Positions 3,111 through 15,327 of a DNA stretch of 64,000 nt are shown piece after piece. The DNA lies in contig NZ_KI911557.1 in NCBI RefSeq assembly GCF_000515215.1, forward strand, positions 4,831,741 through 4,895,740, in the 5' to 3' direction. Each line of letters opens with the position of its first letter. The first letter of the stretch is position 1. Below the pieces are notes generated by a model, which was not told the origin of the DNA, searched no databases, and saw nothing but the letters and a program-made list of their open reading frames with translations. The position numbers and the translations under genes were made by a program. Origin of the DNA: Methylomonas sp. 11b. GTDB lineage: Bacteria; Pseudomonadota; Gammaproteobacteria; Methylococcales; Methylomonadaceae.

Positions 3111-4556
3111 TTAAACCGTATAGGTTGTCGATGCGGTTTTGCCGCCGTGTCCGGTCCAGTCGGTATGAAAAAACTCGCCTCTGGGTCGGTCGGTACGTTC
3201 ATACGAGTGCGCGCCGAAATAGTCTCTTTGTGCTTGCAGCAGATTGGCTGGCAGTCTTTCGGTGCGGTAGCCGTCAAAATAGGCCAAGGCAGACGAGAAG
3301 GCCGGCGTTGGAATGCCCAATTGTATGCCCAGTATCACGGCTTGGCGCCAGCCCGCTTCGGCTTGTTTCATGGCATCGACGAAGAAATCGGCCAGCAGCA
3401 AGTTTTCCAGATCGGGGTTTTGCTGGTAAGCCTGTTTGATGTCGTTCAGAAATTGGCTACGAATGATACAGCCGCCGCGCCACATCAAGGCAATCTCGCC
3501 GTAATTCAGCGCCAGTTTGTATTCCTTGGCGGCTTCGCGCATCAGCCGAAAACCTTGTGCGTAGGAAATGATTTTCGAAGCGTATAAGGCTTGGCGGATA
3601 GCCTGAATCATCGCCGCTTTGTCGCCGCTAAAGCTGGCGCTGGTTTTCGGCAAGGCTTTGGCTGCGCGGATGCGCTCGTCTTTTTGCGCGGACAAACAGC
3701 GGGCAAAGACAGATTCGCCGATCAGTGTCAGCGGGATACCTAGGTCCAGCGCATTGATGCCGGTCCATTTGCCGGTGCCTTTTTGGCCGGCGGTATCCAG
3801 AATGCTGTTCAGCAAGGGTTGGCCGTTGTCTTCTTTGTAAGCCAGGATGTTGGCGGTGATTTCGATCAAATAAGAGCTTAATTCGCCTTGATTCCACTCG
3901 GCGAAAATTGCCTGCATTTCATCGGTGCTTAAGTTCAGCCCTTCGGCCAACAATTGATACGCTTCGCATATCAGCTGCATGTCGCCGTACTCGATGCCGT
4001 TATGCACCATTTTTACGTAGTGGCCGGCGCCGTTATCGCCTACCCATTCGCAGCAGGGGTCGCCGTCGACATGGGCGCTGATCGCCTGAAAAATCGGCTT
4101 AACCGCCGGCCAGGCTGCTTGGTTACCGCCGGGCATGATAGACGGACCGTGCCGGGCGCCTTCTTCCCCGCCGGATACGCCGGTGCCTACGTAGAGTAAG
4201 CCTTTTTCCTGCAAATATTGAGTGCGGCGGTTGGTGTCGGTAAACAGCGAATTGCCGCCGTCGATGATGATGTCGCCGGCTGACAGCAAGGGCAGCAAGT
4301 CGTCGATGTATTGATCGACGACAGTACCGGCCTTGACCATTAACATCACCTTGCGCGGCGATTCCAGGCTATTGACCAACTGTTCCAGGGAATGCGTGCC
4401 AATGACTTGGGTGTTTTTAGCCGGGCCGTCGAGAAACTCATCGACTTTGCTGGTCGTGCGGTTATACACCGCCACTTTGAATCCGTGGTCGTTCATGTTC
4501 AGGACCAAATTTTGTCCCATGACGGCCAGGCCGATTAAACCGATATTTGCTTTCAT
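3111..4556 (-). CDS. gnd: 6-phosphogluconate dehydrogenase (decarboxylating)
   Basis: Converts 6-phosphogluconate to ribulose-5-phosphate, CO2 and NADPH or NADH. I place the start at 4556 (MKANIGLIGLAVMGQNL), giving 481 residues. This puts the Rossmann GLIGLAVMGQNL loop at the N-terminus as in the family; an upstream in-frame start at 4601 would only add a non-conserved 15-residue tail. The substrate-binding VSGGEEGARHGPSIMPGG segment and the KMVHNGIEYGDMQ helix (catalytic Lys, then His-Asn) are intact. It lies between edd and eda, so the two enzymes competing for 6-phosphogluconate are co-encoded. Cofactor preference cannot be read with confidence. Confidence 0.96.
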   Translation of the reverse strand: MKANIGLIGLAVMGQNLVLNMNDHGFKVAVYNRTTSKVDEFLDGPAKNTQVIGTHSLEQLVNSLESPRKVMLMVKAGTVVDQYIDDLLPLLSAGDIIIDGGNSLFTDTNRRTQYLQEKGLLYVGTGVSGGEEGARHGPSIMPGGNQAAWPAVKPIFQAISAHVDGDPCCEWVGDNGAGHYVKMVHNGIEYGDMQLICEAYQLLAEGLNLSTDEMQAIFAEWNQGELSSYLIEITANILAYKEDNGQPLLNSILDTAGQKGTGKWTGINALDLGIPLTLIGESVFARCLSAQKDERIRAAKALPKTSASFSGDKAAMIQAIRQALYASKIISYAQGFRLMREAAKEYKLALNYGEIALMWRGGCIIRSQFLNDIKQAYQQNPDLENLLLADFFVDAMKQAEAGWRQAVILGIQLGIPTPAFSSALAYFDGYRTERLPANLLQAQRDYFGAHSYERTDRPRGEFFHTDWTGHGGKTASTTYTV

Positions 4557-4629
4557 GTGCTTGCCTACTGTAAACGTTGTCGTTGTGGGGTTATGACACA
4601 ATGTTGCTTAATTCTGGTTTCAAGAAAGA

Positions 4630-4649
4630 CGTCCTTCCGTGGAAGGACG
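4630..4649 (-). terminator. Hairpin between edd and gnd
   Basis: Inverted repeat CGTCCTTC / GAAGGACG with a four-base loop. On the minus strand it is followed by a T-rich TCTTTCTTG. It lies between the edd stop and the gnd start and could partly terminate edd transcripts or protect an mRNA end, allowing different expression of gnd-eda. Confidence 0.5.
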
Positions 4650-4697
4650 GATTTGGCAAAGTGAAACTAAGACGGCATTGCTTAAAACGTATGAATA

Positions 4698-6518
4698 TCA
4701 GTCCACGAAAAACAGATTAGTCGCCCCGGTTTCCGAGGTGGATGCGTTTGCTCGCATTGCGCCAAACAGTTCGCGGCCCATGCCGAAATGGTGGCCGGTA
4801 GCGCTGTTCGGAGTCGGCACCCGGGCATCGAATTCGGCTTGATCCACTTGGACGTTGACTTCGCCGGTTTGGGTGTTTAAGGCAATGATGTCGCCGTCGC
4901 GGACTTTAGCCAGCGGACCGCCGTCTATGCATTCCGGCCACATGTGGATCGCCGACGGCACCTTGCCGGACGCGCCGGACATTCTGCCGTCCGTGACCAA
5001 GGCGACATGAAAGCCGCGGTCTTGCAATACGCCCAGCACCGGGGTCAGTTTATGCAATTCCGGCATGCCGTTGGCTTTCGGGCCCTGGAAGCGCAGCACT
5101 ACGATCACGTCTTTTTCCAGTTCGCCGCGTTTAAAGGCCGCTACCACGTCCAATTGGTCATCGAAGACCATCGCTGGCGCAGTCACTACCTGATGTTTTT
5201 CCGCAACAGCGGAAATTTTCGATACGCCGCGGCCCAGGTTGCCGTGCATCACATGCAGACCGCCACCCGTAGCGAAGGGTTGTTCTACGCTGCTAATCAC
5301 TTCCGGGTCCAGTGAGCTGGCAGGCCCTCGCTCCCAAACCAGTTTGTCGCCGTTCAAAGTGGGCACTTGGCTGTATTGAGCCATGCCGCGCTGGTCGCCG
5401 ATGGTCAGAATGTCACCGTGCAATAAACCATGCTCGAGCAATTCCTGGATCAATAAACCCATGCCGCCGGCGGCCTGGAACTGATTGACGTCGGCCGGGC
5501 CGTTCGGATAAATCTTGGTCAATAACGGGATGGCTTTTGACAGATTATCGAAATCGTCCCAGTTGATGATAATGCCCGCCGCGCGGGCGATGGCGATCAA
5601 ATGGATGGTGTGATTGGTCGAGCCGCCGGTGGCCAGCAAGCCGATAATCGCGTTGATGATGGCTTTTTCGTTGACGACGTGAGCAATCGGCCGGAAGTCG
5701 TCACCCAGCGCGGTGAATTTCAACACTTGTTTGGCGGCAGCCTTGGTCAGTTCGTCGCGCAACGGGGTATATGGGTTGACGAAGGAACTGCCGGGCAAGT
5801 GCAAGCCCATGATTTCCACCATCATCTGGTTACTGTTGGCGGTGCCGTAGAACGTGCAGGTACCGGGGCTATGGTAAGCCTTGGATTCCGATTCCAGCAG
5901 TTCTTTTTCGCCGACTTTGCCTTCGGCGAACTTTTGCCGAGTGCGGGATTTTTCCTTGTTGGAGATGCCGGTGGTCATCGGGCCGGCGGGTACAAAAACG
6001 GCCGGCAGATGGCCGAAGCTCAAGGCGCCGATCAGCAAGCCGGGCACGATTTTGTCGCACACGCCCAAATACAGGGCGGCGTCGAACATGTTGTGGCTCA
6101 AGCCGATAGCGGTGGAGAGCGCGATGACGTCGCGGCTGAACAGTGATAACTCCATGCCCGGCATGCCTTGCGTCACGCCGTCGCACATCGCTGGTACGCC
6201 GCCGGCAAATTGGGCGACACCGCCGGCTTCGCGTACGGCCTGCTTAATCAATTCCGGATAGTGTTGATACGGTTCGTGCGCCGACAGCATGTCGTTGTAG
6301 GCGGAGATAATGCCGACGTTGGCTTTCACGGCATGCGACAGGGCGTCTTTTTCAGCCGCTGAACACACGGCAAAACCGTGGGCCAGATTCGCGCAAGGCA
6401 GGTTGGTGCGTTGAGGGCCGTTGGCAATAGCGGCATCAATGCGGGCCAGATAGGCAGCGCGGCTTTCTCGGCTACGTTCCACCACGTCGGCGGTCACTTT
6501 TTCTAAAACAGGATGCAT
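4698..6518 (-). CDS. edd: 6-phosphogluconate dehydratase
   Basis: 606 residues, the usual Edd length. It dehydrates 6-phosphogluconate to KDPG using a [4Fe-4S] cluster. The IlvD/Edd family signature with [19 protein letters not shown] is present, as are the upstream [18 protein letters not shown] and the C-terminal [18 protein letters not shown] stretches with conserved Cys and Ser residues. Length and the [10 protein letters not shown]-terminus separate it from dihydroxyacid dehydratase (IlvD). It follows pgl by ~100 bases and precedes gnd; with eda at 2391 it completes the Entner-Doudoroff pathway. Confidence 0.96.
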
Positions 6519-6622
6519 AAGCTCTCCAGGGCAGCAGATGGGGTGGTGTCGACGCGCCGAACGGCGTTTTGGAATCGAGAGTAAGTGGTTATGCGCGTCT
6601 AACCCACCCTAAAATTAAGCGA

Positions 6623-7333
6623 CTAAGGTGCCCAATACAATTCCACCGGCACGTCTTCCTGATTCAATAAGGCCCGGATCGGCATGTCCTCTAACGGACC
6701 CGGTTTCTGGGCGCTGTTGAATACCGCCAACTTATCTTCGCCGGTGAACAAAATAACGATGCGTTCTGACTTTAATAAGGCGCTGCGGGTCAAGGTCAGG
6801 CGTTCCGTATTGGGGCCGGTCACTTCGCTCTGAATGGCGGTGATGGCTGCGGTCAGATTTTGATTGTCCTCGCTTAACGCATCGGCCAGACCTTCGGCGT
6901 GCGGAAACAGCGAGGCGGTATGACCGTCCGGTCCCATGCCGACGATGCTCAGCGTGAAAGGCTGCGGCAGTTTGGCGTAGCGGTCTTCGGTTTCGGCTTG
7001 GCCTTGTTTGGCTGTGCTAGCCAGGGTTTTCATACCGATAAACTCGACGTTTTTGGCGTTGTTGATCAGCAGACTGCGGCGGATTAATGCCTCGTTGCTG
7101 GCGCTGTGTTGATTATCCACCCAGCGTTCGTCCACCAATGCCACCTTGATTTTTTTCCAATTCAAATCGGATTTGGACAAAGCTTCGTAAAGCGGGGCAG
7201 GGGTAGTGCCGCCAGATACTAATAAAGTCGCTTGACCGTGTTTGCTGACGGCTTCGGATAAAACATCCTGGCATTCGGCGACCAAGGCGGTAAACAGGTG
7301 ACTACGTTGTTCGAAAAAAAATTCTCTAACCAT
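6623..7333 (-). CDS. pgl: 6-phosphogluconolactonase
   Basis: Hydrolyses 6-phosphogluconolactone made by Zwf. With the start at 7333 (MVREFFFEQRSHL) the protein has 236 residues, typical of the DevB/Pgl family. A longer frame reaching 7474 would overlap the end of zwf and adds a low-complexity tail, so I reject it. Motifs: LVSGGTTPAPLYEAL near residues 36-50, VALVDERWVDNQHSASN, and SIVGMGPDGHTASLFP carrying the conserved His. The gene starts 31 bases after the zwf stop, so the two are surely one transcript. Confidence 0.95.
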   Translation of the reverse strand: MVREFFFEQRSHLFTALVAECQDVLSEAVSKHGQATLLVSGGTTPAPLYEALSKSDLNWKKIKVALVDERWVDNQHSASNEALIRRSLLINNAKNVEFIGMKTLASTAKQGQAETEDRYAKLPQPFTLSIVGMGPDGHTASLFPHAEGLADALSEDNQNLTAAITAIQSEVTGPNTERLTLTRSALLKSERIVILFTGEDKLAVFNSAQKPGPLEDMPIRALLNQEDVPVELYWAP

Positions 7334-7364
7334 GTTCGTTGTTCTCGTGATGGATACAGATTGA

Positions 7365-8831
7365 TTACTCTTCCCAGGAGCGGCCGTCGCGGGCCAATAA
7401 TGCCACTGAGGCAATCGGCCCCCAGCTGCCCGCCGGGTAAGATTTTGGAGCGCTGTGGCTTTGTTCCCAGGCATCTTGGATCGAATCGACCCAGGCCCAG
7501 GCTTGTTCGATTTCCTCGCGGCTTAAAAACAGCGTCGGGTTGCCGCGCAGGGCTTCCAGAATCAGTTTTTCATAGCCGCCGAAGATGCTGTTCTTCTTGA
7601 AGGTTTCCGAGAAACTCAAGTCCAGCTTGGTTTGTTGCAATTTGATGTTGCCGTCTATGCCAGGCACCTTATTCAGCATCACCACGTCCACGCCTTCGTT
7701 GGGCTGTAAATGGATCACCAGTTTGTTGGCCGGCAAATCGCGGAAGCTGTCCTTGAAGATGTTATGCGGCAACTGCTTGAAGTTGACGACGATTTCGGTA
7801 CGCTTATTGGGCATCCGCTTGCCGGTACGCATATAAAACGGCACGCCGGCCCAGCGCCAGTTGTCGATGTCCACCCGAATCGCCACGAAGCTTTCGGTGG
7901 TGCTTTCTTTGTTGGCACCTTCCTCTTCCAGGTAACCCGGCACCGCCGAGCCTTTGATGAAACCGGCGGTATATTGGCCGCGTACGGTTTTCTCTTCGAC
8001 GTTGCGCGCAGTAATCGGCCGTAAGGCTTTTAATACCTTGATTTTTTCCATATGGATGCTTTCCGCTTCCAGATCGGCCGGCGGCTCCATCGCCACGAAG
8101 GTCAGAATCTGCAGCAAATGGTTTTGCAGCATGTCGCGCAGCTGGCCGGTTTTATCAAAATATTCCCAGCGGCCTTCGATGCCAATATCCTCGCCCACTG
8201 TGATCTGAATATGGTCGATGGTGTTGTGGTTCCAGTTGGTGGTAAAAATGGAATTGGCGAAACGCAGGGCCAGCAGGTTCAATACCGTTTCTTTGCCCAG
8301 GTAATGGTCGATACGGTAGACCTGATCTTCCTGGAATACTTCTTCGACGACATCGTTAATTTCCTTGGACGATTTCAGGTCATGGCCGATGGGTTTTTCC
8401 ATGACCATCCGCGATTCGGCGGTCAATACGCCGCAACTTTGCAGGCCCTGGCAAATGCTTTTGAATAGAAACGGCGCCACGGCGAAATAGTTGACCATCA
8501 CCCGCTTTTCCGGATCAACTGCGGCATTCAACTGTAGATATTGTTCCGGTTGAGTCAGGTCGATTTTCAGATACGATAATCTTTGCGACAGCCGGCCCCA
8601 GATTTCGGGGTTTATCTCTTTGTGTAAGAACGATTTCAGGCTGTTATGAGCAATTTGGACGAAGCCTTCGCTGGTTTCCTCCAGTCGATCAACGCCGATA
8701 ATGCGGGTATCGGCTTCCAGCAAATTGGATTTTTCCAGACGATACAACGAAATCAGTAACTTTCGTTTCGATAGATCACCCAATGCGCCGTAAATCACCA
8801 GGTCGCAAGGTTTGTAATTTTGATTTTTCAT
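7365..8831 (-). CDS. zwf: Glucose-6-phosphate 1-dehydrogenase
   Basis: 488 residues. It oxidises glucose-6-phosphate to 6-phosphogluconolactone and is the entry point for both the oxidative pentose phosphate and Entner-Doudoroff routes encoded downstream. The coenzyme-binding GALGDLSKRK is at residues 15-24, EKPIGHDL at ~145-152, and the active-site signature RIDHYLGKE at 173-181. It is the first gene of the minus-strand cluster; the 204 bases upstream (8832-9035) should hold the promoter, though I see no convincing operator there. Confidence 0.96.
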   Translation of the reverse strand: MKNQNYKPCDLVIYGALGDLSKRKLLISLYRLEKSNLLEADTRIIGVDRLEETSEGFVQIAHNSLKSFLHKEINPEIWGRLSQRLSYLKIDLTQPEQYLQLNAAVDPEKRVMVNYFAVAPFLFKSICQGLQSCGVLTAESRMVMEKPIGHDLKSSKEINDVVEEVFQEDQVYRIDHYLGKETVLNLLALRFANSIFTTNWNHNTIDHIQITVGEDIGIEGRWEYFDKTGQLRDMLQNHLLQILTFVAMEPPADLEAESIHMEKIKVLKALRPITARNVEEKTVRGQYTAGFIKGSAVPGYLEEEGANKESTTESFVAIRVDIDNWRWAGVPFYMRTGKRMPNKRTEIVVNFKQLPHNIFKDSFRDLPANKLVIHLQPNEGVDVVMLNKVPGIDGNIKLQQTKLDLSFSETFKKNSIFGGYEKLILEALRGNPTLFLSREEIEQAWAWVDSIQDAWEQSHSAPKSYPAGSWGPIASVALLARDGRSWEE

Positions 8832-9035
8832 CAGTGATACCAGGAATGAAGAAGAGGGTTGATCGGCTTTGGCATGTCGATTTCAGCGCGCAAAATAAAC
8901 GCACGTTGCAGGAAACTCTGGGCCCGGATCAGTCGAAAATGCCGCTATTATAATGTTCGTTGCCGGTTCGGAACAAGATCAAAGGCCGCCAGGGCCGGAT
9001 TTACTTGGGTTGGTGGCGCACGAAACGGTTGCTTA

Positions 9036-9599
9036 TTAGCCGAACATCTCGGTGGTATAACGATAGGCTTGCATCGTGTCCGACCAATAGGCGGCGGGTA
9101 AGCCGGCCTTTTGTTTTAGGTGTTGTAAAAACTGGGCGGGATCGGGTAAATCGTCCCATACCGAGGGCAGGAAAGTGCCGCGCCGGCCGCCTTCCTGCAA
9201 GATGATGCCGTCGATGCCGGGGCGAAGTTGCACGATTAGATCCGCTTCCGAAGCGAATTTCATCGCGACGGCGGGGCTAAGTACGGAAATATGCAGATCA
9301 AGATCGGCCAGTTCCTCGGCAGCCAGCGGCGGAAAACGCCGATCCCGGAAAGCGGCCGCAAAGGCGTTTTCCGCTACATCTTCCACCAAAGGCCTTACTG
9401 CTTCCAGCATGCCGATACAACCGCGCAATTGGCCGCGGCGTTCCAGCGTGACGAAAGTCGCGCAGATTTCGCGTAATTCCGCTGGATAGCTCTCCAAATC
9501 GACCGGTAACGGCCGACCGGTTTGCAGGCCGTGGGCTATGGATTGCCGGGCTAGTTCCAGCAACCGACTTTGCAAGGTTTTAGTCAACGACATAGGCAC
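9036..9599 (-). CDS. amrA: AmmeMemoRadiSam system protein A (AMMECR1 domain)
   Basis: 187 residues with the AMMECR1 fold: FVTLERRGQLRGCIGMLEA (the conserved LRGCIG motif), then FRDRRFPPLAAEELADLDLHI and a C-terminal block ending EMFG. The domain is widely conserved but its biochemistry is unresolved. The first 14-20 bases overlap the end of amrB; start codons at 9599 and 9593 are both possible. Together with the MEMO protein (9580) and a divergent radical SAM protein (10515) it forms the three-gene AmmeMemoRadiSam set. Confidence 0.88.
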   Translation of the reverse strand: MPMSLTKTLQSRLLELARQSIAHGLQTGRPLPVDLESYPAELREICATFVTLERRGQLRGCIGMLEAVRPLVEDVAENAFAAAFRDRRFPPLAAEELADLDLHISVLSPAVAMKFASEADLIVQLRPGIDGIILQEGGRRGTFLPSVWDDLPDPAQFLQHLKQKAGLPAAYWSDTMQAYRYTTEMFG

Positions 9600-10359
9600 C
9601 GTACCCCACGACTTGCTGTTTGTCGCCGGCCGTGTCGCCGGAATTGCGCAGATCTATGGTTTTAATAGACAGGCCTTTTTGTTTCAGTAGTTTCAACAAG
9701 CCGTTGACCGGTACCTTGCCGCAGGCGGCCTCGCCGCAGATTTCGGTGTATTGCAAATGCTCTATCATTCGGCTGGTCGCTTGGTCCAGGCGTTTGGCGG
9801 TGTCGTAGTCGTGATAATGGCTTAGGTCCGAGCTGATGACCAGTAAGGTTTCATCGCCGCCCCACAACAGCTCCAGCGCCTGACTGACTTGCTCGGGACT
9901 GGCGTCGCCGGCCACGATGGGGACCAAAGTGAATTGCTGTAACACGGCCTGTAAAAACGGCAGATGTACTTCCAGGCTATGTTCCAGGGTGTGGGCTTGT
10001 TCAATGTATTCGACAAACGGCAAATTCAATAAGGCTTCGATGGCGGCTTTATCTACCTCGACATCGCCGAGCGGTGTGGTGTAAGCGTGGGTTCTACTGA
10101 CAGCCAGACCGCGAAACGCCACGCGATGCGAGGGGCCAATCAATACCACGCGGGTAATGCTGGCAGCGGCCGGCTTTAAACGGGCATAAGCGGTAGCGGC
10201 TATCGGTCCGGAATACATATAGCCGGCATGCGGTACGATCATGGCTTTGGGTACTTTGCCGATTGGGCTGACGTCCTGTAAATAGCCGGACACCGCGTCA
10301 TGGAGCTGTTGGGGGTGGGCAGGATAAAACCGTCCTGCCACGGCGGGTTTTCTGTTCAT
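9580..10359 (-). CDS. amrB: AmmeMemoRadiSam system protein B (MEMO family)
   Basis: 259 residues of the MEMO family, structurally related to class III extradiol dioxygenases. It begins RKPAVAGRFYPAHPQQL and carries the metal-site histidines in VPHAGYMYSG, HTLEHSLEVHLPFLQ and SSDLSHYHDY, with GPSHRV between. Its C-terminus overlaps amrA by 14-20 bases. MEMO1 in animals is linked to copper and redox control; the bacterial role is not settled. Confidence 0.9.
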   Translation of the reverse strand: MNRKPAVAGRFYPAHPQQLHDAVSGYLQDVSPIGKVPKAMIVPHAGYMYSGPIAATAYARLKPAAASITRVVLIGPSHRVAFRGLAVSRTHAYTTPLGDVEVDKAAIEALLNLPFVEYIEQAHTLEHSLEVHLPFLQAVLQQFTLVPIVAGDASPEQVSQALELLWGGDETLLVISSDLSHYHDYDTAKRLDQATSRMIEHLQYTEICGEAACGKVPVNGLLKLLKQKGLSIKTIDLRNSGDTAGDKQQVVGYGAYVVD

Positions 10360-10514
10360 GCGCTGATCCTTTTTTAAAGTTTTAATACGATCAGAGGCCG
10401 GGCGGACCGTGGCCTATCAAAAAATTGAATACCACGCTCGCCCAGGGTTTATTCTACTGCTAACTCTTGCAGATAACGACCCGATTTTATGCTTGGGGTT
10501 CAAGGAGCATCGCC

Positions 10515-11597
10515 ATGACTACTTTACTCAGCGCGGATACCGCAGCCACCCGTTATTGGCATGTCTTGGCGGACGGCAAGGTGCAGTGCGACTTGTGTCC
10601 GCGCTTTTGCAAATTGCATGAAGGCCAACGTGGCTTGTGTTTTGTGCGCCAGAATTTGGACGGGCAAATCGTGATGACCAGCTACGGTCGTTCCAGCGGT
10701 TTTGCTATCGATCCTATCGAGAAAAAGCCGCTAAACCATTTTTTACCCGGCACGCCGATTTTTTCCTTCGGTACCGCCGGCTGCAATTTGGCCTGCAAGT
10801 TTTGCCAGAATTGGGACATCAGCAAGTCGCGGGAAATGGACACCTTGATGAGCCGGGCAGCGCCGGAAGCAATAGCCAGGGCCGCTTTGGAACATGGTTG
10901 CAGCAGCGTCGCCTATACCTACAACGATCCGGTGATTTTCCACGAATACGCTATCGACACGGCTCAAGCCTGCCGGGAGCTGGGATTGAAGTCTGTGACG
11001 GTTACGGCCGGCTATGTCTGTGCAGAGCCGCGCGCCGAGTTTTATCGCTACATGGATGCCGCCAATGTCGATCTAAAAGCATTTTCCGAAGATTTTTATC
11101 ACAAGATCACCGGTGGCCATTTGCAAGCGGTACTGGAAACGCTGCAATATTTAAAACATGAAACCCCGGTCTGGTTGGAGTTGACTACGTTGCTGATTCC
11201 CGGCGCAAACGATTCCGAGACGGAATTGGAAGCCATGACGCAATGGGTGGTGGAACATTTGGGATCGGATGTACCCATGCATTTCACTGCGTTCCATCCG
11301 GATTGGAAAATGACGGATACACCGCCCACGCCGCGATCCACATTATTGCTGGCGCGCAGCATTGCCTTGAAAAACGGCGTGCGTTACGCCTATGTCGGCA
11401 ATGTTCACGACAAGTCGGCAGAGAGCACTTATTGCCATAGTTGCGGCAAAATTTTGATCGGTCGCGATTGGTATGAGTTGTCGGATTGGAATTTGGATGC
11501 CGCCGGCAATTGCCGGTTTTGCGGTAGTTCCTGCGCGGGCGTATTCAATCCCTTACCGGGCGATTGGGGCGCTAAACGCCAGGCGGTAAGGCTTTAA
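10515..11597 (+). CDS. amrS: AmmeMemoRadiSam system radical SAM enzyme
   Basis: Radical SAM protein related to pyruvate formate-lyase activating enzymes. The start at 10515 is chosen because AAGGAG lies eight bases upstream; an in-frame ATG at 10467 has no such site. The protein then has 360 residues. The cluster-binding motif C90-x3-C94-x2-C97 (CNLACKFCQNW) is intact. Extra cysteines occur at both ends (C25, C28, C32, C42, and CHSCGK...CRFCGSSC near the C-terminus), suggesting further metal or Fe-S sites. It is divergent from amrB-amrA across 155 bases. The substrate is unknown. Confidence 0.9.
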   Translation: MTTLLSADTAATRYWHVLADGKVQCDLCPRFCKLHEGQRGLCFVRQNLDGQIVMTSYGRSSGFAIDPIEKKPLNHFLPGTPIFSFGTAGCNLACKFCQNWDISKSREMDTLMSRAAPEAIARAALEHGCSSVAYTYNDPVIFHEYAIDTAQACRELGLKSVTVTAGYVCAEPRAEFYRYMDAANVDLKAFSEDFYHKITGGHLQAVLETLQYLKHETPVWLELTTLLIPGANDSETELEAMTQWVVEHLGSDVPMHFTAFHPDWKMTDTPPTPRSTLLLARSIALKNGVRYAYVGNVHDKSAESTYCHSCGKILIGRDWYELSDWNLDAAGNCRFCGSSCAGVFNPLPGDWGAKRQAVRL

Positions 11598-11612
11598 TTG
11601 GCTGATTTACTG

Positions 11613-12407
11613 CTAAGACCAGGCATCCGCATTGATTTGGCCGATAGCCTGAAATGTCGGTTTGCAGAATAAGTAACCTTGAAATAACGTGACGCCGCAG
11701 GCCAACAGAAAATCGCGCTCGGCCTTGGTTTCAATGCCTTCCGCCAGCACTTCAATGCCGAGTTCGCGGCAGATTTGCACAACCCCGGCGACAATCGCCT
11801 GCTTGGGCTTACTGAGATTGATGTCGCGTACTAAATCCATGTCCAGTTTCAGTACATCCGGCTGGAATTCGGCGAGCAGGTTCAGGCCGGCGTAGCCCGC
11901 GCCGAAATCGTCGATTGCGGTTTTAAACCCGAAGCGCCGGTATTCGGTGAATATATCGATTAAATGCGGACGGTCGGACACATCCTCGCCCTCGACCACT
12001 TCGAAGATGATGCGGTCTTTGGAAAAATTGTAGCGTTGCGCAGCCTCAAAAGTTGAACGGATGCAGGCTTCGGGTTGGTAAACGGCATTCGGCATGAAAT
12101 TAATCGACACAAATTCTTGGATACCCAATCTCGCTGCGCCTTCCACAGCTTTAATCCGGCAGTTTTGGTCGAAGCGATAGCGGTTGGCATCGGTCACTTT
12201 GCCTAATATCGATGCGGCCGATTCGCCGTTAACGCCGCGCACCAGGGCTTCGTGAGCAAAAATGGTTCGGGCAAAAAAATTGACGATGGGTTGATAGGCA
12301 AAACTAAAGTCGAAATCCAGTTCCTCCAAGTCTCGGCAACGGTTGCAACCGGGTAGGTCGTTACTGGTGTGGGCTTGCGGGGAATTTGGCGCGGTTTTTT
12401 CTGGCAT
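11613..12407 (-). CDS. EAL-domain cyclic-di-GMP phosphodiesterase
   Basis: 264 residues, essentially one EAL domain after a short N-terminal stretch with a CNRC motif. Catalytic features are preserved: the EAL Glu in AHEALVRG, Asn in SINFMPN, Glu in FEVVEGEDV, the AIDDFGAGYAGL loop, Lys in LKLDMDLV, AEGIET and FQGYLF. It should hydrolyse c-di-GMP to pGpG in the cytoplasm. The sequence type resembles EAL domains linked to BLUF sensors, but no BLUF domain is present. It converges with amrS (15-base gap) and is divergent from the OmpA-V4R-Roadblock operon, with which it may be functionally linked (inference). Confidence 0.88.
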   Translation of the reverse strand: MPEKTAPNSPQAHTSNDLPGCNRCRDLEELDFDFSFAYQPIVNFFARTIFAHEALVRGVNGESAASILGKVTDANRYRFDQNCRIKAVEGAARLGIQEFVSINFMPNAVYQPEACIRSTFEAAQRYNFSKDRIIFEVVEGEDVSDRPHLIDIFTEYRRFGFKTAIDDFGAGYAGLNLLAEFQPDVLKLDMDLVRDINLSKPKQAIVAGVVQICRELGIEVLAEGIETKAERDFLLACGVTLFQGYLFCKPTFQAIGQINADAWS

Positions 12408-12733
12408 AGCGTATTCTCGAAATCGATATCAGGATGTTAGCCATCCTTGCTTAAGCGGGGGCGTTCTTTGCGGTCATAATTATCAAGTGTAGCGAAGTTC
12501 ATTGGAATAAATGTTTAATTCGCAAGCTTTTGAGGCTACTGGATCAGCTTGATTTCAGGATTCACTTAAGTAGTTAAGTGTCAAATCCTAAGATTTAATT
12601 ATTTGAACCAGCATGAACTTTGATTATGCGTGGAAACTTGCATATGATAGTCCAACAAATTTAAGTCGGTGCCTGCTCACACTGTCCCTGCAAATATTCA
12701 GCAGGCTTGGCAAACGGAACTTAAGGGAATTCC
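12408..12733. other. Divergent promoter region, EAL gene / OmpA-V4R-Roadblock operon
   Basis: 326 bases without a gene separating two divergent transcription units. It is AT-rich in its middle and contains one clear palindrome (12563-12580, listed separately). No open frame looks coding. Promoters for both sides must lie here; I cannot place -35/-10 boxes with confidence. Confidence 0.6.
12563..12580. promoter_or_regulatory. 18-bp palindrome, candidate operator
   Basis: CACTTAA-GTAG-TTAAGTG, a perfect 7-bp inverted repeat, with looser flanking symmetry (AGGATT on the left, AATCCT on the right). It lies about 150 bases before the OmpA-like gene and ~155 bases before the EAL gene. The symmetry suits a dimeric regulator. 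No T-tract follows, so a terminator is unlikely. Confidence 0.4.
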
Positions 12734-13579
12734 ATGAAAAAACCTCGATCACTCGATCACGACGGCCTGGATGGCATCATTCCGTCTACGGACAAAGCGC
12801 GGCTTAAATCCGGCAATCCGCAAGGCAAATCAGACAAAACCCTAAAAAAGCCTATGCACAGCAATGTGCCATGGTTGCTTGGTGTGATTGGTTCACTGGC
12901 CTTGCTTGCGGTATTTGTGCCGGATTTAACGCAAAAGCCGGAAGCCGTTACCCAGGCCGCAGCCCTAAATAATCAGGCAACGGCAGTCAAAAGCCCGGCG
13001 TCAGAGCCGCTTGTAGCCGCGGAAAATACTGATACCCCAGCGCCGCAGCCCCCAGCCGAAGCGGCTCCAACAATGGTTGCCGAGGCTAAATCGGATCACG
13101 CGCTTGCAGCAAATCAAAACGCGCAACAGGCGGCCGCCGGCGATGCTGACATTCAGACCCCTGATGCTTTGCCTGAGTTACCCACCGAACCGACAGCGGC
13201 GGGTATTCCCAAAGCGTCACCGGATACCGCTGCGCAAACCTCTGTCACGACGCCTTTTACCGTGTATTTCAAATTCGATTCCAGCAAATTGACGCCGGAA
13301 TCAGCTAATAGCGGCAACGAACTATTGAGCGCGGCCAAAGGCTGCCAGAAGCGGATAAAGCTGATCGGGCATACCTGCAATTTGGGTAGCGATGCCGCCA
13401 ACTTACAGTTGGGCTTGACGCGGGCCAATGCCGTTAAAAAACTGTTGATCGCCAAAGGTATCGGCTCAACAGCCATCTTCACCGCATCGGAGGGCATGAG
13501 AAAACCGGCGGCGCCGAACGATACCAAAGAGGGCCAGGCCTTAAATCGTCGGGTCGAATTGCAGTGTGTGGATAATTAA
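12734..13579 (+). CDS. OmpA-family domain protein with N-terminal membrane anchor
   Basis: 281 residues. A short cytoplasmic basic segment (1-48) precedes one membrane span at ~52-70 (WLLGVIGSLALLAVFVPDL), then a long Ala/Pro-rich linker (~75-175), then an OmpA-like peptidoglycan-binding domain starting YFKFDSSKLTPESANSG, with the LIGHTCNLGSDAANLQLGLTR core and a terminal NRRVELQC. The anchor is an inner-membrane type rather than a cleaved signal. AAGGGA lies seven bases before the ATG. It is the first gene of a four-gene operon with cytoplasmic V4R and Roadblock proteins, so it may connect the cell wall to that module (inference). Confidence 0.8.
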   Translation: MKKPRSLDHDGLDGIIPSTDKARLKSGNPQGKSDKTLKKPMHSNVPWLLGVIGSLALLAVFVPDLTQKPEAVTQAAALNNQATAVKSPASEPLVAAENTDTPAPQPPAEAAPTMVAEAKSDHALAANQNAQQAAAGDADIQTPDALPELPTEPTAAGIPKASPDTAAQTSVTTPFTVYFKFDSSKLTPESANSGNELLSAAKGCQKRIKLIGHTCNLGSDAANLQLGLTRANAVKKLLIAKGIGSTAIFTASEGMRKPAAPNDTKEGQALNRRVELQCVDN

Positions 13580-13602
13580 CCGAATTGAAGAGGGTAGACG
13601 CC

Positions 13603-14151
13603 ATGATACAAAACAGTAAATCAGACTATCAGATAGCCCAACAGCAAATTCTCGACGGCATTATTTCAGGCGAGTTCGATATCGAAAACCGCAAAGATTT
13701 GGGGCCCTTAATTCCAATCCGCTTGTTTCAAGCTCTGCGCATGGTGGCGCTGGGATCGAACGTGGAAGACATATTAGGGCAGGGCGCGCCGTCGCTGGTT
13801 TACCATTCCGGCCAGAGTTTGGGCTTGGCCATGGGGCAGATTGCCGCCGCCAATATCGATAAGGATTTGGAAACCTATGTCGGCAAAATCAAATTGCTGT
13901 GCCGACAGCTCAGCATTGGCTTGGTAGTGCCGGATAAAGTGGACTTGTCAGCGGGGGTGTTGGAGTTAAGGGTGGACGAATGCGTATCCTGCGCCGGCAT
14001 TCATCACGTTTCCGCGCCTATCTGCCATTTCGAAGCCGGCATGGTCGGCGGCATCGTCAGAACCTTTTTCAATCGCAATGTGAAGGCGACCGAAACCAAG
14101 TGCAATGCGCTGGGCGACAAGACTTGTTTAATCCGCGTCGATTTACTGTAG
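13603..14151 (+). CDS. V4R (4-vinyl reductase-like) domain protein
   Basis: 182 residues from the ATG at 13603, preceded by AAGAGGGT; a TTG at 13585 would add six residues but overlaps that ribosome site. The core LVYHSGQSLGLAMGQIA through VDECVSCAGIHHVSAPICHFEAGMV and a C-terminal TKCNALGDKTCLIRV fits the V4R fold, a small-molecule or metal sensing domain found in XylR-type regulators and BchJ. Five cysteines (CVSC, PIC, KC, TC) could bind a metal or hydrophobic ligand. The gene lies 23 bases after the OmpA-like gene and 33 before the first Roadblock gene. Confidence 0.8.
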   Translation: MIQNSKSDYQIAQQQILDGIISGEFDIENRKDLGPLIPIRLFQALRMVALGSNVEDILGQGAPSLVYHSGQSLGLAMGQIAAANIDKDLETYVGKIKLLCRQLSIGLVVPDKVDLSAGVLELRVDECVSCAGIHHVSAPICHFEAGMVGGIVRTFFNRNVKATETKCNALGDKTCLIRVDLL

Positions 14152-14184
14152 GTTGATAATTATTAAAAGAATCAGGAGAGCAGC

Positions 14185-14598
14185 ATGAGTAGTAATGTCC
14201 AATTTCTCGACCCGCGAAAATCTCAGAACAACGAAATCGATTCCATTTTGCGTAATCTGATGAACATCCAGGGCGTATCGGCGGCGGCCATTGTCGACAG
14301 CGACGGCTTTGTCACGCATATCCACCGCGATTTCGAAATCAACACCGACGCCATCGGCGCCTCCGTGCAGGTGGTATTCGGCGCGGCGGCGAAAGCGGCG
14401 CAACACGTCGGCCATCATTTGACCAATATGGTGATTTGCGAAAACAACGATGGTTATATTTTATCCACGCCGATTGACGGGGGCTTCATTTTGGCTCTGG
14501 TAACCCAGCGGGAAGCCTTGTTGGGGCGGGTGCGGTTTGAATTGAAAGAAACCATTCCGGTATTGAAAAAATTGTTCACCAGTTATCTGGCCAATTAA
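14185..14598 (+). CDS. Roadblock/LC7 domain protein (first of two)
   Basis: 137 residues. NEIDSILRNLMNIQGVSAAA through VDSDGFVTHIHRD and a C-terminal ILALVTQREALLGRVRFEL matches the Roadblock/LC7 (MglB-like) fold that regulates small GTPases or acts as a dimerisation scaffold. A strong site (AGGAG) precedes the ATG. It is third in the operon, after the V4R gene and 20 bases before a second Roadblock-like gene. No MglA-type GTPase is visible anywhere in the window, so its partner is unknown. Confidence 0.82.
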   Translation: MSSNVQFLDPRKSQNNEIDSILRNLMNIQGVSAAAIVDSDGFVTHIHRDFEINTDAIGASVQVVFGAAAKAAQHVGHHLTNMVICENNDGYILSTPIDGGFILALVTQREALLGRVRFELKETIPVLKKLFTSYLAN

Positions 14599-14618
14599 CC
14601 GCTGCCTAGAGCCTGAAT

Positions 14619-15062
14619 ATGCATTGGTTTGAATCGCAGTTGGCGCAGCTCGATACGCTCGCCGACGACTATCTCGCCGCGCGCCGACAACCGGCGGCCG
14701 ACATCGTCAATGTCAGCGAAGCCACCCGCCTAAAGCGCGCGGCATTTATCGACGCCGTGCAGTCTGTGGTGGATAAAGTGGTCAAGATCGATGGCGTAAG
14801 CGCTTGCGCAGCCTACCACGACGGCCTGATTCTGGCCCAATCTGCGGAAGCGTCCAATATGGATGCGTTCGGGGCGATTATTCAGGAAACCATTCGTGCC
14901 GCTCAGCACGGTGAAAGCTCGCTGGGTCTGGGCGAGATCGAACAGATCGTCATTGTCGGTGCCGTCAACAAGCTGGCAATGCTCAGCGTCGGGCCTATCA
15001 TTTTGTGTATCTCCAGTCCTAAGGGCGTCAATTTGGCCTCTGTGTTGAGTCAGGCCAAATAG
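14619..15062 (+). CDS. Roadblock/LC7-like protein (second of two)
   Basis: 147 residues. An N-terminal helical stretch of ~45 residues precedes a Roadblock-like core: DAVQSVVDKVVKIDGVSACA, YHDGLILAQSAEASNMDAFG, IEQIVIVGAVNKLAMLSVG and ILCISSPKGVNLASVLSQ. Only modestly similar to the preceding protein, it may form a heterodimer with it (inference). Its stop is immediately followed by a hairpin, so it is the last gene of the operon. Confidence 0.75.
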   Translation: MHWFESQLAQLDTLADDYLAARRQPAADIVNVSEATRLKRAAFIDAVQSVVDKVVKIDGVSACAAYHDGLILAQSAEASNMDAFGAIIQETIRAAQHGESSLGLGEIEQIVIVGAVNKLAMLSVGPIILCISSPKGVNLASVLSQAK

Positions 15063-15078
15063 ACAGCGGCAGCTGTCT
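15061..15078 (+). terminator. Terminator of the OmpA-V4R-Roadblock operon
   Basis: A perfect 7-bp stem AGACAGC-GGCA-GCTGTCT overlaps the stop codon of the last gene; a pyrimidine-rich stretch (GTTTCTTCCTTC) follows ~10 bases later. Confidence 0.55.
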
Positions 15079-15230
15079 ACAACCGTCGTTTCTTCCTTCT
15101 CGCCGAGTGGTTGCGAGAAACGCCATTCCCCTTGTTCGTAGAAATTGCCCTCCGTTGCCAACTGAACTAAGCTGATTAGTGAACGGTGGGTGTTGTCCCG
15201 CGGTTTCAAAAAAGAATAACTAGATCTTCG

Positions 15231-15327
15231 TTATTTACCCGGCCCTATTGATCACGGGTCTGCCGTTCGGGCTGAGTTCGTCGAAGTCCAGGCCGGTGTG
15301 GGCAATGTTTAAGGGCCGGGTTAATAA
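15231..15327. repeat. MITE-like element, copy A
   Basis: 97 bp bounded by imperfect terminal inverted repeats (left TTATTTACCCGGCCCTA, right AAGGGCCGGGTTAATAA; 15 of 17 positions complementary). The interior carries GATCACGGGT, TGCCGTTCGGGCT and CGAAGTCCA, shared with copy B at 56279. No coding capacity. It ends only 21 bases before the receptor ATG at 15349, so that gene's leader or promoter overlaps it. Confidence 0.8.

Follow-up and report, generated by a model that had tools for sequence, protein, structure and literature searches.

Roadblock proteins take part in bacterial signalling in the MglA-MglB systems of Myxococcus and Thermus, and in the Streptomyces conservons (CvnA-D) a Roadblock protein and its partners form a membrane-associated complex (PMC4316618, extracts; here and below this word marks a source cited from parts of its text). 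Roadblock proteins without a nearby GTPase gene are common in bacteria: the same extracts, from a 2014 survey, give 328 of 749 MglB homologs as uncoupled from a GTPase gene and state that none of the orphan MglB proteins had been characterised. In Ragulator (LAMTOR) the anchored protein p18 wraps Roadblock heterodimers (PMC5680233, extracts), and the V4R-type fold has cavities, which accommodate palmitic acid in mouse TRAPPC3 and phenols in the case of PoxR (PMC10933270, extracts). We describe here an operon of Methylomonas sp. 11b (assembly GCF_000515215.1, contig NZ_KI911557.1, positions 4,831,741 to 4,895,740; this whole stretch of 64,000 nucleotides is called the window) whose four genes encode an OmpA-domain protein, a V4R protein and two Roadblock/LC7 proteins, RB1 and RB2. 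An earlier reading of this DNA, made from the letters and a list of open reading frames (ORFs) and called the sequence-only reading below, had known of no described system with this composition, and our search of open-licence papers, as far as the retrieved passages go, found no description of one either.

The four genes lie in the order OmpA, V4R, RB1, RB2 on the same strand between window positions 12734 and 15062 (Table 1) of a genome of 5.41 Mb assembled as a single contig, and all four products exceed the curated Pfam cut-offs, RB2 only narrowly. The OmpA domain matches with E 1.2e-18 and the V4R protein (PF02830) with E 1.4e-15 and 57.6 bits against a cut-off of 31, while the Robl_LC7 matches (cut-off 23 bits) have E 9.6e-9 and 35.3 bits for RB1 and E 1.4e-5 and 25.2 bits for RB2. 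Robl_LC7 is also matched by 10 of 10 aligned RB2 orthologs at E up to 0.1, the most distant RB2 copy (genome G1000, below) reaches 41.7 bits, and profiles of RB1 and RB2 find the solved Roadblock protein 7yh1_D at E 2.7e-4 and 0.012, respectively. The gene order, the presence of two Roadblock proteins and the lack of a GTPase among the four genes, all of which the sequence-only reading had claimed, are thus borne out.

The unit is kept well beyond close strains, and the refutation that the sequence-only reading had named, a gene order confined to close strains, does not hold. A V4R match is present in 24 of 37 genomes of the genus, the window genome included, and at all 24 loci the four genes follow in the same order and on the same strand. 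In a family sample 33 of 201 genomes have a V4R match, and the other genera of the family supply eight loci (V4R identity 68–84%), each with the four genes in order. Order and strand are therefore kept at 32 of 32 orthologous loci, down to 68% V4R identity and in other genera. This count covers loci L001–L024 in the genus and L025–L032 in other genera (V4R identity at least 68%; L and G numbers are our handles for loci and genomes), and omits ten weaker V4R places (33–43%) and two more (E 2.1e-5 and 2.5e-4). An RB1 profile at E 1e-15 matches 33 of 311 genomes of the order, and these are the same 24 genus genomes and 8 other family genomes that have the close V4R match, plus G1000, which belongs to another family. 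Among 369 class genomes the operon-type V4R profile at E 1e-5 matched the window's own genome alone. A scan of 84,980 species genomes, which runs on two short peptide patterns so that misses are expected, returned 25 loci. Twenty of them are operon-type, each with all four genes, under the titles Methylomonas, Methylobacter, Methylococcales or Methylococcaceae and in one case "uncultured proteobacterium"; the remaining V4R loci are from Aquificaceae (3), Fredinandcohnia (1) and Cytobacillus (1).

Flanks were compared at 16 of these 20 named loci (L058, L059, L061 and L068 were omitted as near copies), which partly represent the same genomes as the 32 loci; at L065, L066, L069 and L073 a simple choice of ORFs displaced one of the four genes, and all four were found there by other analysis. 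No gene besides the four is common to all 16 loci, and the surroundings are of at least eight different kinds. Because the order held while the flanking genes change, we regard the four genes as a unit, and it is a narrow, methanotroph-centred one; a chance neighbourhood is rejected on the same two observations. That the genes are neighbours by descent only, with no joint function, would fit a module confined, as sampled, to one order and mostly to one genus. This view is scarcely credible, however, and is already largely refuted by the constant order amid different flanks, by the joint presence of the genes and by the pairwise distances of the four proteins, which correlate over the 32 loci with r of 0.66–0.91.

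The most constant stretch of the OmpA-domain protein lies outside its OmpA domain. The protein has one predicted hydrophobic segment, which fits the link to the envelope that the sequence-only reading had drawn, in keeping with which its sequence falls into unequal parts. Averaged over pairs among 10 orthologs, identity reaches 83% in tail residues 7–15 and 48% in the OmpA domain, as against 19% in residues 17–44, 18% in the membrane segment and 17% in the linker. The motif LDxDGLDG of the predicted cytoplasmic tail is thus more conserved than the OmpA domain of the same protein. It is found by pattern at 31 of 32 loci; at the other one (L015, genome G035) the motif DNA is present with no in-frame ATG, GTG or TTG before it. 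Searched for as a DNA pattern in the 201 family genomes, the motif occurs at 23 places in 22 genomes; 21 of the places are at the OmpA-domain gene, and the other two (G027 and G093) begin with a Phe codon. Stray matches do occur, since the reversed pattern used as a control has 6 places in the 201 genomes. The exact pattern misses 3 of the 24 operon-bearing genomes of the family sample (G013, G015 and G170) owing to Val, Ile or Asn at a single motif position.

In canonical OmpA domains the Asp of the GHTD sequence contacts meso-diaminopimelate (mDAP). In the module a Cys takes its place at 32 of 32 loci (GHTC at 29 and GYTC at 3) and likewise in G1000, while the four solved relatives shown have GHTD or GYTD; all 29 distinct OmpA-type proteins among the loci retrieved have the Cys, and hence offer no contrast residue. 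The domain as a whole resembles 42 distinct solved sequences at E up to 0.001, and the protein stays below the cut-off of every one of the 25 NCBIfam models listed. It is therefore natural to ask whether the domain binds peptidoglycan and the module reports the state of the cell wall to the cytoplasm. The match far above the Pfam cut-off, the solved relatives and the invariant Arg230 speak for it; we take Arg230, without an alignment of the two, as the counterpart of the Arg that is needed for mDAP binding in PapS and has an equivalent in A. baumannii OmpA (PMC11369160, extracts). Simple wall sensing is weakened because the GHTD Asp is replaced by Cys at the 32 loci and in G1000, and the long variable linker could reach the wall but is no proof of a wall signal, so we consider this explanation improbable. 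Of the peptidoglycan binding that the sequence-only reading had assigned, then, the domain and the Arg taken for that of the binding site are retained, while the Asp is gone in 33 of 33 copies.

Three periplasmic cysteines occur at 32 of 32 loci with near-constant spacing and also in G1000, and two loci have one extra Cys in or near the membrane segment. The three might form a disulfide plus a reactive thiol, or a metal site, and the protein would then be a periplasmic thiol or metal (e.g., copper) sensor that passes its state to the Roadblock pair. The constancy of these cysteines and the His two residues before the middle one in 29 of 32 copies (GHTC) are consistent with such a role, but the lack of a fifth gene common to the 16 compared loci means that no metal or redox partner is indicated, and an OmpA-type domain may simply hold a structural disulfide. 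We think this rather unlikely.

The V4R protein was called cysteine-rich in the sequence-only reading, and rightly: six Cys are invariant in 10 aligned orthologs. Cys141, Cys167 and Cys175, accompanied by Glu164, are spaced by 26 and 8 residues as in DmpR, whose zinc ligands are Cys151, Cys177 and Cys185 (PMC7264223, extracts), and as in MaMsvR, whose conserved V4R cysteines are Cys206, Cys232 and Cys240 and were suggested by mutagenesis to have a role in rearrangements affecting DNA binding (PMC3729527, extracts). Glu164 is invariant in 24 aligned relatives and stands 3 residues before the second Cys of the set, as against 5 for Glu172 of DmpR. The other three cysteines, a CxxC pair (Cys127 and Cys130) and Cys100, are extra to the DmpR/MsvR-like set. 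Searches with a profile built on 24 V4R relatives recover two solved proteins, MJ1460 (E 2.2e-4) and YslB (E 3.8e-4), and the NCBIfam MsvR model covers only residues 73–177 with 48.5 bits against a cut-off of 220; a DNA-binding domain is absent. There is no Trp in the sequence, and the Trp that together with a His anchors the phenol hydroxyl in sensors of the DmpR/PoxR type is thus missing; DmpR-like phenol anchoring is unlikely for this reason, and phenol sensing was set aside as a candidate function.

A copy of the module in G1000 lacks the V4R gene at its locus. There (L150, G1000:C1:2669000-2684000, positions 6950–11478) the OmpA, RB1 and RB2 genes lie together, and the V4R profile has no match in the 15 kb read at this locus, the rest of the genome not having been searched. 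V4R is consequently not the constant core of the module. Upstream on the same strand are genes for a protoglobin and for an AAA_22/FGE-sulfatase protein, and the frame of the latter overlaps the OmpA frame by 4 bases. The copy keeps the tail motif (as LDPDGLDG), the three periplasmic cysteines and the N-terminal pattern of RB2. Since a copy without V4R retains the tail motif, the motif has the Roadblock pair, not V4R, as its probable partner; this one locus also suggests that the sensor part of the module may be exchangeable. In a second V4R clade of the same family the V4R gene follows immediately after a Roadblock gene at 5 of 5 loci whose flank is long enough (L049, L051, L053, L055 and L056; L052 and L054 end before the place where a Roadblock gene would be), and a profile of clade 2b matches 3 of 398 phylum genomes, the window genome among them. 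Separately, we noticed a Roadblock gene beside genes for a protoglobin and a PilZN protein in G012 (L099, 4549–6434).

Is the module really free of a GTPase, as had been suggested? The operon is, but the genome is not. A third Roadblock gene of the window genome (G000:C1:33112) is separated by one gene from a gene for a small GTPase of 178 amino acids (Pfam ATP_bind_1, 4.7e-12; Ras, 3.2e-5), about 600 kb from the operon if the chromosome is circular. An Arf-family search had missed this protein (its sole match in the genome is a 909-residue frame that we take to be translation factor IF-2), and the idea that the genome has no GTPase was dropped. RB1 and RB2 could accordingly be a GTPase-activating protein, a guanine nucleotide exchange factor or an anchor for this GTPase acting in trans, recruited to the membrane on a V4R or OmpA trigger. 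Apart from its position one gene from a Roadblock gene, the small GTPase is enriched in operon-bearing genomes: it is present in 22 of 24 of these as against 5 of 13 operon-less genomes in the genus (Fisher p 0.001), and in 21 of 24 as against 83 of 177 in the family sample (Fisher p 0.00014), and about 10 kb separate it from the operon in G005 and G034. The tests ignore kinship, however, and 8 of the 13 operon-less genus genomes are 3.3 Mb or less, so that the association is confounded by shared descent and by small genomes that have neither. The GTPase is also widespread without the operon (104 of 201 family genomes have it) and already has a Roadblock protein nearby.

More directly, the operon-bearing genomes G082, G090 and G187, which are 99–100% complete, have no match to the small GTPase at E 1e-20; a query with the MglA-like GTPase of G009 (E 0.001) likewise finds nothing in them, other GTPases not having been searched there. 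G008 (99% complete) lacks the small GTPase at E 1e-5 and has an MglA-like one, while operon-bearing G030 (78% complete) has neither. With the G009 protein as query nothing was found in the window genome, and no MglA-like GTPase was seen among the operon neighbours read. A trans-acting GTPase is thus possible, but this small GTPase is not obligatory because near-complete operon-bearing genomes have no match to it, and we judge the trans-acting explanation somewhat unlikely. The claim of a GTPase-free device holds for the operon, with three genomes at least 99% complete that carry it and have no match, and it does not hold for the window genome, which encodes a small GTPase near a Roadblock protein of its own. 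As side observations, the third Roadblock and small GTPase genes share one run with genes whose products are a PAS protein, a binding protein of the phosphonate type and, judged by reading only, a protein like class I adenylate cyclase (L095, G000:C1:26000-40000, about 3884–12147), and in G005 genes read as NiFe hydrogenase-like and maturation protease-like stand between the GTPase-Roadblock cluster and the module (L131, about 7791–12906).

Taken together, we favour with middling confidence the reading that the module is a Roadblock heterodimer tethered to the inner membrane and served by a cytoplasmic sensor that can be exchanged. What is observed is the gene content and order, the conservation, the motif and the cysteines; all binding and signalling in the following scheme is inferred from these. 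The OmpA-domain protein would make a single pass through the inner membrane, its first 44 or so residues forming a cytoplasmic tail and its OmpA domain lying in the periplasm. Comparison of the copies suggests that the tail motif LDxDGLDG may dock on an RB1-RB2 heterodimer, in the way that p18 brings Roadblock dimers together in Ragulator. The V4R protein, with its zinc-type Cys site, would be a plug-in cytoplasmic sensor of redox state or of a small hydrophobic ligand and would alter the state of the Roadblock pair; in G1000, where V4R is absent at the locus, the protoglobin gene upstream in the same gene run could supply a haem-type sensor. The least certain step is the periplasmic one, in which the Cys-bearing OmpA domain may hold the platform at the periplasm or read thiol or metal state there, rather than clamp peptidoglycan in the standard manner. 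The product of a GTPase gene outside the operon, or some other partner, may serve as the output. A fuller version would have a hybrid Ragulator/TRAPP layout: the short cytoplasmic motif of the envelope-spanning protein would gather the Roadblock heterodimer, exchangeable sensors (V4R, perhaps protoglobin) would dock on it, and the thiol or metal state of the periplasm would be sensed jointly with a cytoplasmic ligand, no dedicated GTPase being needed. This version is unlikely to hold in all its parts.

Several points weigh against the tethered-heterodimer reading. RB1 and RB2 are only distantly alike (hhalign probability 56%, E 1.1e-4), a degree of likeness that is compatible with a heterodimer but is no proof of one. 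The exchangeable sensor depends on a single locus, that of G1000, and it is from its position that the protoglobin is guessed to take the place of V4R there. Docking could just as well be the task of the N-terminal stretch of V4R or of RB2. Beyond the module, no Roadblock gene was found beside the second-clade V4R relatives in G857 and G751 (outside the family), near the V4R gene of another clade at L047, L048 and L050, or near the five V4R loci of Aquificaceae, Fredinandcohnia and Cytobacillus, although L047 and L077 have little upstream flank for this check; V4R-Roadblock pairing is not general to V4R proteins. By reading, the V4R gene stands just 3' of a chemoreceptor-like gene in Fredinandcohnia and Cytobacillus (L080 and L081) and beside tetrapyrrole-type genes at one Aquificaceae locus (L077).

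The genomic case for the module is nonetheless strong, and its functional reading is provisional. All four domains belong to known families; it is their assembly and the tail motif that seem to be new. The module is a compact case, conserved repeatedly, in which the partners are defined, a short motif is a candidate for docking and one natural version has no V4R at its locus; with it the role of GTPase-less Roadblock proteins becomes directly testable in methanotrophs, named isolates included.

Around the operon, the conserved upstream block ACTTGCATATGATAG is present at L001, L002, L004–L009 and L017 and with one change at L018, and it is absent upstream at L003 and at the more distant loci (upstream sequences compared by eye). 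The promoter-like site that runs into this block is weak evidence alone, since the scan found 4 sites where 3.8 are expected, and a sigma-54 promoter was rejected, the block having by eye no GG-N10-GC. At the other end the sequence-only reading had placed a terminator, which we did not recover: the scan to 15500 lists no terminator-like site 3' of 15062, and a hairpin at 15060–15079 has no T-run directly after it and lies in a 61-base stretch that folds no better than its shuffles (z -0.95). Between RB2 and the next gene, which by reading encodes a TonB-type receptor, is a long inverted repeat (about 15235–15325) that folds better than most shuffles (z -2.1); its loop motif at 15265 was considered as a repeat element and discarded, as it occurs once in the window.

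The divergent EAL gene, offered in the sequence-only reading as a cyclic di-GMP output, is indeed present, but that role is weakened by its absence beside most copies of the module. A match to it stands next to the module at 9 of 24 genus loci, at 1 of 8 loci in other genera (a weak match) and, as a cluster, at 4 of 16 named loci, at one of which the protein has 1059 amino acids, and on these counts we do not regard it as a part or output of the module. Its product scores 395.6 bits with the model of RimA, the S6 modification phosphodiesterase, below the cut-off of 430. Three further genes at 9036–11597, which we take by name to resemble an AMMECR1, Memo and radical SAM trio, have a counterpart beside 5 of 16 named loci.

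Table 1. Features of the operon and its surroundings, in window coordinates.
Feature	Position	Strand	Size, basis and remarks
OmpA-domain protein	12734..13579	+	281 aa (amino acids); ORF list and Pfam; one predicted membrane segment, N-in/C-out layout inferred
Tail motif LDHDGLDG, codons 7-14, candidate docking peptide	12752..12775	+	ortholog comparison
Hydrophobic segment, residues 45-63	12866..12922	+	hydropathy only
OmpA domain, residues 178-272	13265..13549	+	Pfam
Cys215	13376..13378	+	occupies the Asp position of GHTD/GYTD in the solved OmpA domains shown
V4R protein	13603..14151	+	182 aa from ATG; TTG start in ORF list at 13585
RB1, Roadblock/LC7 protein	14185..14598	+	137 aa; ORF list and Pfam
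RB2, second Roadblock/LC7 protein	14619..15062	+	147 aa; ORF list and Pfam
RB2 N-terminal extension, codons 1-18	14619..14672	+	conserved pattern MHWF.S....L..LA..Y
Promoter-like site TTGATT-17-TATGAT	12620..12648	+	site scan; second half inside conserved upstream block ACTTGCATATGATAG
EAL gene, divergent	11613-12407	-	Pfam

Set beside the known systems, the module is like each of them in part. The likeness of its Roadblock proteins to MglB is slight: solved MglB is found by the RB1 profile at E 0.66–0.74, which is not significant, and the NCBIfam MglB model gives 19 bits against a cut-off of 200. Unlike MglA-MglB, the module has two unlike Roadblock genes and adds a membrane protein and V4R; its operon encodes no MglA-like GTPase, and the G009 query finds none in the window genome. 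Unlike the conservons, the operon is without a histidine kinase, a GTPase or a counterpart of the fourth protein, and the separate Roadblock-GTPase cluster of the window genome is nearer to the conservon kind than the operon is. With DmpR/PoxR/MopR and MsvR the module shares, as far as the extracts cited go, the V4R domain and the 26/8 cysteine spacing, but its V4R protein has no DNA-binding or AAA+ domain and no Trp. TRAPP/Bet3 and the Asgard TRAPPC3-like proteins have a V4R-related fold, and Asgard archaea also have Roadblock proteins (PMC10933270, extracts); in Asgard archaea, according to the same extracts, the genes are generally not in one operon with GTPases, and the module differs from these systems in being without a longin protein. 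The likeness to Ragulator is one of layout and not of membership: the anchor here is an OmpA-domain protein rather than lipidated p18, and there is no Rag GTPase. On the side of likeness, the MAPKK1_Int family is matched (E up to 0.1) by 3 of 10 RB2 orthologs, the best at 3.3e-6, while RB1 and RB2 of the window stay below its cut-off with 13.7 and 12.6 bits against 25. Finally, the peptidoglycan-binding proteins of the Pal/OmpA/YiaD type have the same OmpA C-terminal domain, and the protein of the module is set apart from them by its probable single-pass inner-membrane layout, its conserved tail motif and the change of the GHTD Asp to Cys.

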